Shown here piece after piece: positions 5,416-27,048 of a stretch of DNA of 27,048 nt. The position numbers and the translations under genes are program-made. The notes below the pieces were generated by a model. It had not been told where the DNA came from. It worked only from the letters and a program-made list of their open reading frames with translations, and made no database searches. This DNA is from a virus: positions 1-27,048 of the IMG/VR virus record IMGVR_UViG_3300030098_004301; one strand, 5' to 3'. Each line of letters begins with the position of its first letter. Position 1 is the first letter of the stretch.

Positions 5416-5448
5416 GGGGAGGGGGTTTCGGCCCCCTCCTTATTTTAT
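5416..5448 (+). terminator. Intrinsic terminator with UUCG loop after capsid gene
   Basis: GGAGGGGG (5418-5425) pairs perfectly with CCCCCTCC (5432-5439). An additional T-G wobble closes a TTCG tetraloop, and G-T wobbles extend the base. The stem is followed by TTATTTTAT. This is a very stable hairpin with a U-rich tail, located 7 bases after the capsid stop codon. The plus-strand operon continues immediately after it with no obvious new promoter, so it probably terminates only a fraction of transcripts, or is bypassed by an antiterminated or phage polymerase. Confidence 0.88.
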
Positions 5449-17427: not shown

Positions 17428-20400
17428 CAACAACCAGCCAGGCATGCAGCTTACAGAGTCAGACTTTCTAACAGGCCCACTGCTGGAGGAAGCTAAAGAA
17501 GCTACTTTTAGGGACCAATGGGTTGCCAGACAAAACAAAAAGCTTGAGGATAGCCAGAGAAAGTTTAAGCAAAAGCTGCAGCAATCGGCACCGAAGCCAG
17601 AAGGTTTAGGCATAAGCATGCCTGAGCCAGGTGTTGGCCAGGGCATGCAAAGCATTCAAGGCGATGTGTTTGAGGAGGATGGTAAGTACTACTCGACACT
17701 AGAGCCAAACATGCCGTTTGACACTTTTCAGCAAGCCGCAGACAGGTACAGGCAAAACGTTTTTGTAACAACCGGAAAGACGGTTGATGATGTTGTCATG
17801 GGTGGAGAGCAGACCCTTGCAGACGTGCGTCCTGATTTGATCTCGCCACTAGCCCCGGATGTCGATGCTGTTGCTAGCGATACAATGGCTGCCCCAAAGA
17901 ACAGGGCTAGGTCGATCAAGCAAAAGTCAGCCAGCAACACGCCTCTGTCTAATGAAGATTTGTTTTTTGTTGCAGAGAACTTGTCGCTGTTTATTCCAAG
18001 AAAGAAAGCAGACGGATCGTTTGACGAAGCAGACCACATACGCACGCCAAACTGGTTTAAAAGCTGGCTTACCGAAGAAACAGAGATTGCAAACGAAGCA
18101 GCCAAACAACTTGGAGAAAACGTCTCAGGCTTTGATGACTTTAAAGACATTGGTTTTGGCAGGGGGCCAATAACTGACCAGGAAATATTAGCAGTTGCCA
18201 GCAGGACCATCCCTAAAGACCAAGTAAAAGCGTTTGAGTCTGGGGTTAAGGAGCAAAGAAAAAGAAAGTTCCAGGACCAGATACAGCAATCCGGCGTCTC
18301 GTCCGACAGTTTTGATGATTACGCAAGGGGCAAGGTTGACCTTATTGTCGAAGACACGATTGCTCCTGCCGGAAAAATGTATCGTGCCCCTTTTGACTTA
18401 GCCGAGCTTCAAAAGAAAGCCGCAAAACTTAACCTTACAGCCGCAGAAACATCTGAACTTCAAAAAAGATTTGAAGCGCTTCAGGCGTCAGGAGACATTG
18501 ACGAAAAAGGACATGCCGACCCTGGCAGCTTTATAGCTACAACGCTTGGCAGGTCAGGTGTTTCGTTTTTACCAAAACACAGAACCTCTCTTGGCCCAAT
18601 CATGCAAAGAGGAATTGCCTCGCAGTTTGAGATGGCAAGGGCATCGCAGAAAAACTGGAACGAAACAACAGGGCAAGCTGCGCGCAACCTTTATGACGCA
18701 GAAGGTTTTTTAAACATACCTGGAGATCCAGACGGAAAACTAGGGATGTGGATGTACAACACAGGCCAAGGAATGCTAAGGCAATTTGCAGGCCTTGTAG
18801 ACCTGGTTAGCTGGGATAACGTAGACAAGAAAAAGTTTCTCGAAAACATTTACAAAAATTACGTGGTGGACAGACACGGGGCAACGCCGCTGCTGAGACA
18901 AGAGCTAGACCTTATAGCCGCAGAAGCAAACAGCCAAATGACTGCAGAGATTATTGACGGAATGAAAGAGTCCCTGTATCAGCTTGGCGGCATTCTACGA
19001 GGAGAGCCTAGAGCCACTGCTGATGCGCTGGCTGGCGACCCGATTGAAGCCCTTGCTAACGTTGTGCTGGTCGCACGATTAGCCACATCGCTGTCAGGTC
19101 TAGGCATTCCGGCAGGAAAGCTGTCTAAATTTCAACGAGACGCAAAAGACTTTCTTGCTAAAGCAGATGCGGAGCTAACTGGAATTCCAACTGTAGCAAG
19201 GTTTGTTGGTGCTGCAGCAAAAGCACCAGTGTGGTTGGCAGAAAAAGTGTCTGACAAGTACGGCCCTTTAGCTAGGCAGTTCTTTACCTCACCAAACCGG
19301 CTAGAGTTAGCCGTAAGAACCGCAAAAGAGCAAGGCGAAGGCATAGAGGCAGACGTAGCAAGAATTAGCAAAAACATTGAAAAGCTTGTTGAAGAAGGCA
19401 TGTCTCAAGCAGATGCAACACAAAGCGCCATGGCAGGCGTTAGTAAAAAATCTGCCGACTTTTACGCCCGCACTGTTCTTGACAATGTTGGTTTTTCTCA
19501 TGGGGCAAAGGAAGGGTTTCTACAAACATTAGATAACCCACAAGAGGTTTTAACAGCAATCGTTTCAAACGATGCCAAGGCCTTAAGGGAGGCACTTCCC
19601 GAGTCAATGCTATCAGATGCCGGAATACAACCGGCAATGCGTCCTGAAAAAATGACAGACGCAACGAGTAAGAAAGGCGCAGAGTACGAGACTATTCTCG
19701 TAGACCCAAAAGTTTTAATGAAACAGTTCGACGACGCTTTTGTTCAGCTTGAAAAGCTAGGACGAGGAGATGAGCTTAAGCAGTTGCTTGACCAAGTAAA
19801 GCGCGCCTATACCTTAATTGGCAGGAGAGACTTAAAGTTTCCTTTAATAAGGCCAGGGTCAAACCTAGTTGAGGGAACGTCTGGAGTACCTCAGGTGTTT
19901 GACCAAAACGCCGGGATTAGCAACAGGGCTTTACTGTTGGCTATGCTTTTAGAATCAAAAGGCAAGCCGGTTCCAGTAAGCGTTCTCGCGGGTGAGACTT
20001 CTTATTTTAAAGGTCCGCTTGTTGGCCCTCCCGATATTGTAAACAAGATACCAGTTGCTGACAGGTCGAGACTTAAAGTTTACGAAAGCTCAGGTCAGTC
20101 AAAGGCTGGAGACATGCTTGATAAGCTCAACCGAGACGAGGTTGCTGACTACGCTCTGTACATAAGAAGGGCGCAAAACCTTGCACGGAAAGACCCCGAG
20201 GTCTTTGCAGAGCTAAAGAAAGCATACTTAGAAAAGATCGGCCTAACAGAAGAGCAGTTCAATCAAACAAGGCTTGGCGGCGTAGCGGCAAGCGTCGATA
20301 ACATGATTGAAGAATTAATCGTGCGAGGCACACCAAGGGCACCAGGGGCAACGGAGGCAATCCCCTCTCTGTTTGGAGTTAAAAGGCCAGCAGAGTATCT

Positions 20401-23359: not shown

Positions 23360-23734
23360 ATGGCAGGCACAGCAAAGAAGTCAGACCCAGCCAAGTGGGA
23401 GAAAGCGAAGCAAGACGCTCGAGCAAAGATGGGCGGCAAGCACAGCGCCAGGGCAATGCAGCTAGCCGTTAAACTGTACAAGGACAGGGGCGGCAAGTAC
23501 GAGGGGGCAAAGAAAGGCCCGTCTGAAAACAAGCTATCTAAGTGGAGCAAGCAAGACTGGGGCTACGCTGGAAAGAAAAAGAAAAGCGTGTACCTGCCAA
23601 AGGCAAAGCGCAGCAGGCTTAAGTCCACACCCGAAGGAAGGAAGGCGCTGGCTGCAGCAGCAAAGAAGAAGCTGGCTGCAACAAAGAAGGGCGAGCAGTA
23701 TGCAAAGCATGGCCTAGCAAAGGGGACATCATGA
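23360..23734 (+). CDS. Lys-rich DUF5872-like protein
   Basis: This is a 124-residue, very basic protein. The pattern SDPAKWEKAKQDARAKMGGK, then KHSARAMQLAVKLYKDRGGK, then LSKWSKQDWGYAGKK and YLPKAKRSRLK followed by a Lys/Ala tail matches, from memory, the DUF5872 family, which is widespread in phages and some giant viruses and whose function is unknown. I chose ATG 23360 over 23330 because the family-like region begins there, a Shine-Dalgarno (GGAGAGG) precedes it, and it avoids overlapping the peptidase gene. The high Lys content and Trp-containing core suggest nucleic acid contact, but that is inference. The end overlaps the next gene by four bases (ATGA at 23731-23734). Confidence 0.8.
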   Translation: MAGTAKKSDPAKWEKAKQDARAKMGGKHSARAMQLAVKLYKDRGGKYEGAKKGPSENKLSKWSKQDWGYAGKKKKSVYLPKAKRSRLKSTPEGRKALAAAAKKKLAATKKGEQYAKHGLAKGTS

Positions 23735-24033
23735 GCGAAGCAAAGATGAAAGCCGCACGCAACCTACTTAAGAAACACAACCTCGAGGGGTTTAACAAAG
23801 CAAAGCGAACACCGGGCCACCCAAAGAAGTACCACATGGTTATGGCCAAAAAGGGTGACAAGACGAAGCTCATCAGGTTTGGAGAGCAGGGCGCAGAAAC
23901 TGCGGGCAAGCCAAAGGCTGGAGAGTCGGACCGCATGAAGAAAAAGCGCAAGGCATTCACAGACAGGCACAGGAAAAATATTGAAAAAGGCAAGATGAGC
24001 GCAGCATATTGGGCCAATAAGGAGAAGTGGTAG
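23731..24033 (+). CDS. Small basic protein, conserved phage family
   Basis: This 100-residue basic protein begins with a helix (SEAKMKAARNLLKKHNLEGF), then KRTPGHPKKYHMVMAKKG, KLIRFGEQGAETAGKPKAGE and the closing DRHRKNIEKGKMSAAYWANK. The 'K.iRFG..G..t.g.p....s......r..F..RH..ni.kg..SaaYWaNk..W' pattern is familiar from many marine phages and algal viruses (possibly DUF5754, from memory). Function is unknown. Like its neighbour, it is Lys-rich and soluble and may be virion-packaged or DNA-associated. It is coupled by ATGA overlap to the preceding gene. Confidence 0.8.
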   Translation: MSEAKMKAARNLLKKHNLEGFNKAKRTPGHPKKYHMVMAKKGDKTKLIRFGEQGAETAGKPKAGESDRMKKKRKAFTDRHRKNIEKGKMSAAYWANKEKW

Positions 24034-24885: not shown

Positions 24886-25076
24886 TGGCTGAGAAGAAAG
24901 CAACGAAGAAGGCAGCACCTAAAAAGGCAGCACCTAAAAAGAAAGCCGAACCCCCCGCGCTATACAAAGCAGTGGAGGAGGACGGCTTATGGTATGCCAC
25001 TAACGGCAAGGACAAGCATGGACCACACACCGCCCACAGTGTAGGCGGGTGGGTTGCCAAACTTAACGCCAGCTAG
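24885..25076 (+). CDS. Small Lys/Ala/Pro-rich (histone H1-like tail) protein
   Basis: This 63-residue protein has an N-terminal tail MAEKKATKKAAPKKAAPKKK, resembling histone H1 or HU-extension AKP repeats, followed by a compact C-terminal segment with aromatic residues (ALYKAVEEDGLWYATNGKDK, then SVGGWVAKLN). The tail is built from a 15-bp tandem repeat. Lys-rich tails usually bind nucleic acid non-specifically; what the C-terminal part does is unknown. This is the last gene of the plus operon. Its TAG stop shares the palindrome CTAG with the stop of the convergent minus-strand gene. Confidence 0.72.
   Translation: MAEKKATKKAAPKKAAPKKKAEPPALYKAVEEDGLWYATNGKDKHGPHTAHSVGGWVAKLNAS
24911..24940 (+). 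repeat. 15-bp tandem repeat, two copies
   Basis: Two exact copies of GGCAGCACCTAAAAA encode successive KAAPK units in the Lys/Ala/Pro tail of the 63-residue protein. The array is short and in frame, so copy changes would lengthen or shorten the tail without frameshift. Confidence 0.85.
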
Positions 25077-25570
25077 AACGGAACGTCGTCATCATCAAAC
25101 GACTTGATGTGTGACTCCACCTGCTCCAACTGAACACCCTCATGGACTGGCACCCTCACAGAGGACAGCCAGTTCTTAGGGTTGGGGAACTTGGGTAGCT
25201 GCGGAGCTAGGATGACTAGCTCTATCTCACAACTGTATCCAACCAGTTGACGGGGTGGTTTACCCTCCGACCATGAAAGCTCGTCGTTGTACCCAACCGA
25301 GGTGCATACGTCTGCCAACATGTAGCGTGCCTTTAGCTCACGCTGTGTGTTGTTGTGCTCGACGTTAAGTGTCTGCCAGTGCAGCCTACCCTTATGCTTG
25401 CCCTCGGTAATCTGCCACACAAGCTGGATGGACACACCGGCTGGGTTGTCCCATGTCTTAATGGTCACGTCCTTAATCGTGGCAGAGTACCACCCGTTAG
25501 GGATGGGGTCGTACTTCTTGGTTTCCTTCTTATCTTGACGGTCGTTGTAATCTGCTGGGTTAAACCTCAT
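25073..25570 (-). CDS. DUF669-like single-stranded DNA-binding protein
   Basis: This 165-residue protein contains NGWYSATIKDVTIKTWD, then VSIQLVWQITEGKHKGRLHW and ELKARYMLADVCTSVG, a pattern known from DUF669 phage proteins that act as SSB analogues with an OB-like fold. The C-terminus ends in DDDDVPF, closely matching the acidic DDDIPF tip of bacterial SSB that recruits DNA repair and replication proteins. It is the last gene of the minus-strand operon, with an 11-base overlap with the 61-residue gene upstream of it. Its TAG stop lies in the CTAG shared with the convergent gene. The role is ssDNA protection during replication and annealing recombination. Confidence 0.82.
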   Translation of the reverse strand: MRFNPADYNDRQDKKETKKYDPIPNGWYSATIKDVTIKTWDNPAGVSIQLVWQITEGKHKGRLHWQTLNVEHNNTQRELKARYMLADVCTSVGYNDELSWSEGKPPRQLVGYSCEIELVILAPQLPKFPNPKNWLSSVRVPVHEGVQLEQVESHIKSFDDDDVPF

Positions 25571-25745
25571 CGTCGTCCCCCTCTAGTTCTGCGTCGTAAC
25601 ACATGTCGCAAAACAATTGGTCGATCCCACTATGTGCAAGCGCGCGCACGTCCTCTCGCGAAGCAAGGCCCTTCATGCCGCGAGCTTTATTTAATAAGCG
25701 ACGACGTTCGTCGTCTATCTCAATCGTTCCTAGTCGTACTCTCAT
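25560..25745 (-). CDS. Small conserved-looking protein (61 aa)
   Basis: This 61-residue protein starts MRVRLGTIEIDDERRRLLNK, followed by ARGMKGLASREDVRALAHSG and an acidic end (ELEGDDDEV). The beta-strand (RLGTIEID) followed by two helices with 'ddErRrll...g..g.AsReev' is a pattern I recall from small phage proteins of unknown function; it could be a ribbon-helix-helix-like fold. Two cysteines occur near the end (FCDMCYD). A Shine-Dalgarno (AAGGAG on the minus strand) lies about 8 bases before its ATG. The start overlaps the annealase stop (ATGA) and the end overlaps the SSB-like gene by 11 bases. Confidence 0.68.
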   Translation of the reverse strand: MRVRLGTIEIDDERRRLLNKARGMKGLASREDVRALAHSGIDQLFCDMCYDAELEGDDDEV

Positions 25746-26152
25746 TCCTGTTCTCCTTCTTTCTTAGCTAGAATCTGGTGTAAGACATAGTTCTCCTGGC
25801 TCCACAGGTGTAGACCTAAGCCTAACCTCATGGCGCACCGCTTGATGGCGTCAGACGCTATGTCCTTAGCCTTCTCGCCTGCTATGGGTGTTGGCCTCTC
25901 GACCGCACCCACCTCTTCGATGACAACCTTCTTGCCGTCCACCTCTGCGGTTAGCCGGAAGATGCCACCCTCAAGACCTGTGTCCCCCTGTATCCAGCAC
26001 ACATGCTCAAAGCTATATGTGCCGAGGATGCCGAGGAGGAACTCCGTCACAGTGGAGTGTGACACGTACTCAGCCCTGAACGACCCACCCTTCTGCTCAA
26101 CGAACTTGGGGTGGAATGGTTTGCTTAGTTTTAATAGCTGGCTCATGACCAC
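25742..26152 (-). CDS. Rad52/Sak-like ssDNA annealing protein (probable)
   Basis: This 136-residue protein contains KPFHPKFVEQKGG, YVSHSTVTEFLLGILGTYSF, IFRLTAEVDGKKVVIEEVGA and GEKAKDIASDAIKRCAMRLG followed by GLHLWSQ. The final 'AsDAiKRcamrlGLGlhLW' block is the hallmark of phage Rad52-like annealing proteins, which pair complementary single strands during phage recombination. It is shorter than cellular Rad52 but normal for phage forms. It is encoded next to a Gp157-like gene and an SSB-like gene, which supports the role. M1 and M3 are both possible starts; the gene overlaps the upstream Gp157-like gene by 10 bases. Confidence 0.7.
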   Translation of the reverse strand: MVMSQLLKLSKPFHPKFVEQKGGSFRAEYVSHSTVTEFLLGILGTYSFEHVCWIQGDTGLEGGIFRLTAEVDGKKVVIEEVGAVERPTPIAGEKAKDIASDAIKRCAMRLGLGLHLWSQENYVLHQILAKKEGEQE

Positions 26153-26691
26153 CTCACATGTGTGCGCTCGACTTGCTCGTACTCAACGCCGGGGATATCT
26201 TCCCCACGCTTAGCCGCAGCTTTTAACTCTGTCTTGCTGATGTCCATCTTGACGAAGCAGGCAGGTAGCTTGGCAGGGTCGAGCTTCATCTCACCTGTCT
26301 CGGCGTCAGAGAACTGCCACTCTTTGCGCTTGGTAAGGGTTGCCCACGTACCGTCCTGCAAAGACATCTTCCTGTTGCCGGTGATGGTGTGGTGGCTCTT
26401 AAGCAGCATGTGTGCAAAGTCCTTCACCTTGTCGATGACCGTGCCTTGGACACGGAACCTGGTGCTGTACCTGTCACGCTGTTGCCTGAAGAAGTCCTGC
26501 CTGTTCTTGGCAAGCTCGATGACACGCCGGTAGTTCAGCATCTTGTCTGCCGTCTGTTCCAGCGTTACCTCGAGGCACTTGAGCCAGTGATTCATGGCGT
26601 CCTCGTCTTCAGGGTCGATGGAATCGAGGGTGAGGATCAACTCCTCCAGTTCCCGCTCGAGTTCGAACCCGCTCTTTTTATCTTGTGTCAT
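26143..26691 (-). CDS. Siphovirus Gp157-like protein
   Basis: This 182-residue protein has an N-terminal acidic helix (ELERELEELILTLDSIDPED), a coiled-coil region with the 'dK..nY..vI..l......f..e..R' pattern (TADKMLNYRRVIELAKNRQD), and a C-terminal beta-rich part with TWATLTKRKEWQF, LPACFVKMDISKTELKAAAK and GEDIPGVEYEQVERTHVRW. This matches the Sipho_Gp157 family (PF05565). Those proteins travel with phage recombinases and SSBs; their biochemical role is not firmly known. It is the first gene of the minus-strand operon, with TAGGAG as Shine-Dalgarno 9 bases before its ATG, and it overlaps the next gene by 10 bases. Confidence 0.85.
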   Translation of the reverse strand: MTQDKKSGFELERELEELILTLDSIDPEDEDAMNHWLKCLEVTLEQTADKMLNYRRVIELAKNRQDFFRQQRDRYSTRFRVQGTVIDKVKDFAHMLLKSHHTITGNRKMSLQDGTWATLTKRKEWQFSDAETGEMKLDPAKLPACFVKMDISKTELKAAAKRGEDIPGVEYEQVERTHVRWS

Positions 26692-26741
26692 AATCTCGTA
26701 CTCCTATAATGGTTGGAATTCTAATGTGGTGTTAGATTTTG

Positions 26742-26790
26742 GGACACCATCGGTCAACCCACAAACCCTGGCCGATGGTGTTTTTTCTTA
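26742..26790 (+). terminator. Plus-strand intrinsic terminator-like hairpin
   Basis: ACACCATCGGTCA (26744-26756) pairs with TGGCCGATGGTGT (26769-26781) over 13 bp with one G-T wobble and a 12-base loop, followed by TTTTTTCTT on the plus strand. That is an intrinsic terminator for plus-strand transcription. On the minus strand the hairpin lacks a T-run, so it would instead form a structured leader at the 5' end of the recombination operon mRNA. The nearest plus-strand gene upstream ends 1.7 kb earlier. Confidence 0.75.
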
Positions 26791-26816
26791 TGGCATGAGC
26801 CACATTGAGGTGTCAA
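26787..26816 (-). promoter_or_regulatory. Candidate sigma70-type promoter for the recombination operon
   Basis: On the minus strand, TTGACA (plus coordinates 26811-26816; perfect -35) is followed after 18 bases by CATAAG (26787-26792; four of six to TATAAT). Transcription would start near 26780, at the base of the 26744-26781 hairpin, about 90 bases before the Gp157-like ATG. A short inverted repeat TGGC-ATGA-GCCA (26791-26802) lies in the spacer. Confidence 0.5.
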
Positions 26817-26829
26817 CAACAAAATGTGC

Positions 26830-26858
26830 TTGACGTTATAACGGCGTTACAATACGGT
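26830..26858 (+). promoter_or_regulatory. Candidate promoter for the ribbon-helix-helix gene
   Basis: TTGACG (26830-26835; five of six to the -35 consensus) and TACGGT (26853-26858; weak, but with T1, A2 and T6 of the -10) are spaced 17 bases apart, 30 bases before the ATG at 26889. An alternative -10, TACAAT (26848-26853), fits the consensus better but is too close to this -35. The site is arranged back-to-back with the minus-strand promoter, with 13 bases between the two -35 boxes. Confidence 0.42.
26834..26849. promoter_or_regulatory. Overlapping palindromes, probable operator
   Basis: CGTTATAACG (26834-26843) is a perfect 10-bp palindrome, and it overlaps TAACG-G-CGTTA (26839-26849), a second perfect inverted repeat. 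A further TAACG half-site lies at 26872-26876, just before the Shine-Dalgarno. The array of CGTTA/TAACG half-sites falls between the -35 and -10 of the plus promoter, where a dimeric or tetrameric ribbon-helix-helix repressor would be expected to bind. Confidence 0.6.
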
Positions 26859-26888
26859 AGTGTCTCAAACGTAACGGAGGAGCAACCG

Positions 26889-27048
26889 ATGTCTAACACC
26901 AGGCGACTTACCATCAACGTGCCAACCCACCTGTATGAGCAGTGCGCTGCAGCTATAGACGGCGTTTACCTGATGAACATGAGCCAGCTAGTGCTCGTTG
27001 CAATGAGTGATCTCGTGACCAGAAAGCAATCCCCCCCTCTTCCCTCTT
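26889..27048 (+). CDS. Ribbon-helix-helix transcriptional regulator (partial, 5' end)
   Basis: An ATG at 26889, preceded by GGAGG (26876-26880) at 8 bases, opens a frame that runs off the right edge after 53 codons. The start MSNTRRLTINVPTHLYEQCA, followed by AAIDGVYLMNMSQLVLVAMS, fits the Arc/MetJ-type ribbon-helix-helix plan: a beta-strand RLTINVP, helix A HLYEQCAAAID, and helix B MSQLVLVAMSDLV. The visible end turns Pro-rich (QSPPLPS). Such proteins bind short palindromes as paired dimers, and this one sits directly downstream of overlapping CGTTA palindromes, so autoregulation is likely. The remaining length is unknown. Confidence 0.65.
   Translation, partial: MSNTRRLTINVPTHLYEQCAAAIDGVYLMNMSQLVLVAMSDLVTRKQSPPLPS

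Follow-up and report, generated by a model that had tools for sequence, protein, structure and literature searches.

Gene Organization around the Divergent Gap

The DNA analyzed here, referred to as the window, is a stretch of 27,048 bp that makes up the whole of one IMG/VR virus record and bears no end repeats. It contains a rightward virion block with genes for terminase, the major head protein, portal, and other structural proteins, and a leftward block of three genes (25073–26691) encoding DUF669/SSB-like, Rad52/Erf-like annealing, and Gam-like Sipho_Gp157 proteins. This leftward block is separated from a small rightward gene by a gap of 197 bp (26692–26888). No match was obtained when the whole window was searched against Rfam and for tRNAs. 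The genes on both sides of the gap are listed below.

25073–25570, minus strand: DUF669 / ssDNA-binding-protein-like gene (PF05037, 36.1 bits with a cut-off of 21; phrog_6015, E = 4.6e-12)
25742–26152, minus strand: single-strand annealing protein gene, Rad52/Erf-like (PF04098, 21.2 bits with a cut-off of 20.3; phrog_3290, E = 3.3e-8)
26143–26691, minus strand: Gam-like / Sipho_Gp157 gene, the first of the leftward operon (Pfam PF05565, 39.3 bits with a cut-off of 28.6, E = 8.8e-10; phrog_253 "Mu Gam-like end protection", E = 4.8e-8)
26889–27047, plus strand: start of the small gene, called a ribbon-helix-helix (RHH) gene in an earlier note and matching no family profile (ATG at 26889; truncated after 53 codons by the end of the contig)

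The contig end (27020–27048) consists of a C7 run and a pyrimidine-rich stretch, so the final amino acids read for the small protein could reflect an assembly error and are not to be trusted. Further to the left, a gene of 100 codons (23731–24033) was found to match other phages in its segment 23792–24032, with 68–76% DNA identity over 155–241 bp. The matching phages are Roseobacter phages, a cyanophage, and an uncultured P22-like phage, whose other genes differ, and the gene appears to be a small one moving between phages.

Promoters in the Gap

The following elements were recognized in the part of the gap that precedes the small gene.

26787–26816, minus strand: leftward promoter by consensus score, with −35 TTGACA (26816–26811), an 18-bp spacer, −10 CATAAG (26792–26787), and TGC before the −10
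26830–26858, plus strand: proposed rightward promoter, weak, TTGACG, 17 bp, TACGGT (8 of 12 consensus matches)
26834–26849, no strand assigned: operator-like cluster CGTTATAACGGCGTTA of abutting half-sites CGTTA/TAACG/CGTTA, forming two overlapping palindromes; the sole abutting triple in the window
26872–26876, minus strand: fourth CGTTA half-site (TAACG on the plus strand), recognized by its sequence
26876–26882, plus strand: ribosome-binding site GGAGGAG, recognized by its sequence, 6 nt 5' of the ATG at 26889

Pairs of promoter boxes with 16–18-bp spacers were scored against a sigma-70-type consensus, which may differ from that of the host, and the scores were compared with 500 simulations of the region. 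The leftward pair TTGACA-18-CATAAG matched the consensus at 10 of 12 positions and reached a score of 11 with its extended −10, which was equalled by 3 of the 500 simulated sequences. A leftward sigma-70-type promoter facing the recombination operon is hence above chance and well supported. The rightward pair TTGACG-17-TACGGT is compatible in its spacing with the ribosome site and the ATG, and its score of 8 was reached by 462 of 500 simulations, again with the proviso that the host consensus may differ. The best plus-strand pair in the gap, TCAACA-18-TATAAC, matched at 9 of 12 positions, a score reached by 194 of 500. The rightward promoter therefore scores at chance level and is weak, and one promoter of the two is supported, because the leftward score was matched in 3 of 500 simulations but the rightward ones in 194–462. 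Neither pair was listed by a stricter built-in promoter scan of the window.

The earlier note had described a compact divergent control region, in which back-to-back −35 boxes 13 bp apart drive opposite operons. Such a region was borne out by the opposed gene sets around the 197-bp gap and by the leftward promoter, and the boxes were found at that distance (TTGACG at 26830–26835 on the plus strand and TTGACA at 26816–26811 on the minus strand). A promoter is supported at the leftward box and not at the rightward one. As far as its sequence can tell, the gap 26692–26888 belongs to a tailed phage and is a control region for divergent transcription, of an ordinary kind.

CGTTA Half-Site Cluster

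The cluster CGTTATAACGGCGTTA is composed of the palindrome CGTTATAACG at 26834–26843 and the palindrome TAACGGCGTTA at 26839–26849, and the fourth half-site touches the ribosome site GGAGGAG. The half-sites overlap the rightward promoter only; the one closest to the leftward −35 box is upstream of it, at a distance of 18 bp. The earlier note had placed overlapping palindromes within the plus promoter and a further half-site by the ribosome site. Both the palindromes and the further half-site (TAACG, 26872–26876) are present, and it is the promoter around the palindromes that does not rise above chance. The note had also suggested a search for more CGTTA arrays, which gave 62 copies of CGTTA/TAACG in the window and no second abutting triple.

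We tentatively propose that a weak rightward promoter leads into the small gene, and that the CGTTA cluster would be the operator through which this gene represses itself. Identification of the cluster as a putative operator is plausible from its arrangement. Four CGTTA/TAACG copies lie in the 197-bp gap, where 0.42 would be expected; the Poisson P of 0.00095 applies to a 5-mer picked post hoc. An abutting triple would fall in a stretch of this size with a probability of about 0.002, as scaled from the whole window and with no correction for the motif having been freely chosen. Since the motif was picked after being seen, these statistics are upper limits on the surprise. Another 5-mer, ACACC, also occurs four times in the gap, and the window contains 24 perfect 10-base palindromes and 31 of 11 bases with a central base.

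The half-sites might alternatively have come together by chance, in a gap that is short and rich in A+T, and lie over a weak or absent promoter, in which case the region would comprise a leftward promoter and a rightward terminator only. Simulated windows held 0.31 abutting triples on average, and 27 of 100 held at least one somewhere, compared with the single one observed. Similarly, it is not unusual for a 5-mer to occur at least four times within 45 bp (40 such 45-bp stretches, against 19 in simulations), and the chance-level score of the rightward promoter also agrees with this explanation. However, the triple is located in a gap that is less than 1% of the window, it occupies a promoter position, and a fourth half-site follows in the leader. 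We regard a chance origin as somewhat unlikely.

Small Gene and the Ribbon-Helix-Helix Assignment

The N-terminus of the small protein reads NTRRLTINVP and is followed by helix-like sequence, which we took by eye to be like CopG-type RHH proteins. The profile searches were made with the 53-residue fragment and RHH families are divergent; within these bounds, no family was found in Pfam, PHROGs, and NCBIfam at E up to 10. There was no match to PDB sequences, and the RHH_1 profile found nothing over the whole window at E up to 10. A local RHH profile was prepared from five sequences, namely Arc, Mnt (from the P22 record), and three phage RHH matches. On this profile the small protein scored 0.5 bits, which was reached or exceeded by 196 of 3000 shuffles, and it ranked 71st among 815 small ORFs. 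A single-sequence AlphaFold prediction, made for the monomer and without an alignment, gave one helix (residues 13–47) and no strand, with pLDDT 83.9 and pTM 0.45. In this tentative model, the single helix takes the place of a helix-turn-helix; an RHH protein has a β strand followed by two helices and forms a dimer. The earlier note had called this an RHH gene outright, a claim that failed in every database searched and in the profile test, where the protein did no better than shuffles. A role of its product as an RHH repressor is not supported; the resemblance seen by eye is a lead.

These results are in line with another explanation, in which the cluster is an operator for a different regulator, supplied by the host or by a phage repressor gene that lies beyond the fragment, and the small gene does not encode the binder and perhaps not an RHH protein. 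The failure of the RHH identity in the profile, PDB, and shuffle tests favors it, as does the intergenic occurrence of the 16-mer CGTTATAACGGCGTTA in unrelated phages described below; an RHH_1 search covering 7 of the 16 loci concerned (7 records) found none, a miss that leaves other RHH families possible. Against this explanation, no candidate regulator is known, and the contexts in the other phages differ from the present one, as the array there precedes head genes in the same direction. We consider it unlikely.

Rightward Terminator and Its Hairpin

The left part of the same stretch carries a further element, which is absent from the earlier note.

26743–26790, plus strand: rightward rho-independent terminator by folding, with a 14-bp stem with G-U ends (26743–26782), a 12-nt loop, and a T-run

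A G+C-containing stem is directly followed by the T-run, as is characteristic of an intrinsic terminator. Its folding energy was −26.6 kcal/mol (z = −2.68), and 1 of 200 shuffles was equally stable. Two such terminators were detected on the plus strand of the window and none on the minus strand, compared with none in 20 simulated windows. The other strong rightward one, at 5417–5440, lies directly after the major head protein gene. The terminator 26743–26790 is missing from a stricter scan because the loop limit of that scan is 8 nt, against the 12 nt found here. It sits in the leader of the leftward operon, and rightward transcripts reaching past it would already have crossed the recombination genes in antisense.

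The inverted repeat may be used twice, as the rightward terminator and as the 5' end of the leftward mRNA, if the RNA starts near 26780. Taken further, the hairpin itself would be the main regulatory element, acting as rightward terminator and as a 5'-terminal stem-loop that stabilizes a leftward mRNA whose predicted start (about 26780) is at the stem edge. Both the strength of the terminator and the leader folded from 26781 on the minus strand, which opens with a 10-bp 5'-terminal stem, speak for such a role. The leader as a whole, however, folds no better than shuffles (z = −0.73) and the leftward start is derived from the consensus alone. We consider this explanation improbable.

Occurrence of the 16-mer in Other Phages

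The exact 16-mer CGTTATAACGGCGTTA was found at 27 other viral loci. The reversed 16-mer, identical in composition and palindrome layout, was used as a control and was found at 24, so the total count is at chance level. The location differed, as CGTTATAACGGCGTTA was intergenic in 16 of 27 loci versus 4 of 24 controls (Fisher one-sided P = 0.002), and in 10 of 17 versus 4 of 21 when the loci were grouped into related families (P = 0.014). In several phages, most of them Mu-like, tandem CGTTA arrays with CGTTATAACGGCGTTA are found 15–70 bp ahead of a gene for a head maturation protease or a minor head protein. Identification of the next gene covered 9 of the 16 intergenic loci, and examples of array positions are given below.

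L003:4940, head maturation protease (phrog_328 best)
L007:1877, head maturation protease (phrog_328 best)
L009:5862, head maturation protease (phrog_328 best)
L013:2238, head maturation protease (phrog_328 best)
L016:13595, head maturation protease (phrog_976 and phrog_328)
L006:1779, minor head protein (phrog_220)
L014:285, minor head protein (phrog_220)

The array is followed by a large terminase gene in L011 and by a PHROG of unknown function in L002; in L025, identification covered the major head protein gene further on. Among 15 array-bearing records analyzed, CGTTATAACG occurs at no second place except for one further single site in G043, and the extra copies in the remaining records are parts of the same array. 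In phage D3112, three direct CGTTA repeats (L163:178–206, record about 19647–19675) precede the head protease gene, in the region between the Acr genes and gene I. The corresponding gap holds 0 to 2 CGTTA in Mu, B23, MMP17, the Mannheimia phage, MT835620, FP_Mushu, and Mx4.

In Mu-type phages, the array may act as a cis-element. Its interpretation as a gyrase site was rejected, as the Mu gyrase site lies in the same G–I gap, yet only one half-site is present there. For phage Ab30, with a genome of 37,205 bp, a transposition-free segment has been proposed as a gyrase site (PMC5977238). No CGTTA array was found in the sequence record at the coordinates given in that paper, although the register is uncertain since the record has 37,238 bp against 37,205 bp (PMC5977238). 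Among the papers listed in a literature search for CGTTATAACG, none was on phage or operators by title.

It is highly improbable that CGTTATAACGGCGTTA is, instead of a private operator, one instance of a cis-element that recurs in unrelated phages and is recognized by a factor, of host or phage, that they have in common. Such an element would mostly occur a single time in a genome, a short way 5' of Mu-type head genes, and the present phage would use it at an early divergent promoter. Because the 16-mer is also intergenic by chance (4 control loci), the array in Mu-type phages is treated as a side finding. Its recurrence before their head genes could matter more than the present locus and is independent of what the earlier note claimed.

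Search for Relatives of the Region

A related control region was not found among phages, plasmids, viral contigs, and genomes. No usable relative was obtained for the Gp157-like protein in phages, viral contigs, genomes, and a further set of 30 records, for the small protein in viral contigs, phages, plasmids, genomes, and a further set of 29 records, or for the DUF669 protein in viral contigs; the phage search with the small protein gave weak matches (E 6 to 9). Distant Gp157 relatives were collected with a degenerate pattern (43 loci, 12 of them with a tblastn E up to 0.5) and were rejected as too distant for a comparison of control regions. For the annealing protein, 45 related loci were obtained from viral contigs, where tblastn detected no match to the Gp157-like or the small protein, and no equivalent divergent gap was seen in the gene order of 26 of these 45 loci. 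Terminase relatives (6 loci) have only the left part of the window in common. The closest, L029, is 99.9% identical over 8,166 bp, continues for 1,530 bp beyond the left end of the window, and misses the control region.

Proposed Mechanism and Comparison with Known Systems

In the autorepression proposal, the leftward promoter would drive the recombination operon (Gam/Gp157-like, annealing protein, and DUF669), and the terminator would halt rightward transcripts arriving from the left ahead of the small gene. The weak rightward promoter would then drive the small gene, whose ribosome site and ATG are at normal spacing. A DNA-binding protein on the CGTTA cluster, between the −35 and −10 boxes, would block RNA polymerase, and this binder would most simply be the product of the small gene itself, leading to autorepression. 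The leftward operon may possibly be under the same protein, the cluster lying upstream of its −35 box. Of the autoregulated switch over both operons suggested in the earlier note, the leftward promoter and a plausible operator are supported, and joint control of the two sides stays hypothetical. The proposal draws on the leftward promoter score (3 of 500), the operon profiles, the terminator, the enrichment of half-sites, and the location of the cluster inside the proposed promoter before a strong ribosome site. Against it are the chance-level rightward promoter, the failure of any family to recognize the small protein, and the post hoc motif statistics. If true, it would add another compact switch to those of phages, here in an uncultured lineage, with a very small repressor beside its own operator, dividing early recombination functions from a second operon; the operator sequence would be new and the kind of regulation would not.

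The three genes of the leftward operon follow the same order as Gp157/Gam, annealing protein, and SSB operons of phages, and each matches curated profiles. A difference from these operons is that the 45 viral-contig relatives of the annealing protein are without a close match to the Gp157-like or the small gene. CopG of plasmid pMV158 is an autorepressor that binds across its own promoter. The N-terminal strand region of the small protein reads like that of CopG by eye (RLTI...), but there is no demonstrable sequence match between the two. The arrangement of the gap is also similar to immI of phage P22 (arc/mnt), which has divergent promoters, a short gap, and an operator over a promoter directly 5' of a small gene of about 53 codons. 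The annotation of the P22 record places the arc operator inside the arc/ant promoter, together with a mnt operator and an opposed mnt promoter. P22 differs in possessing two proven RHH repressors, one per side, whereas the leftward neighbor here is a recombination operon, RHH profiles fail to recognize the small protein, and the operator sequences are unrelated.
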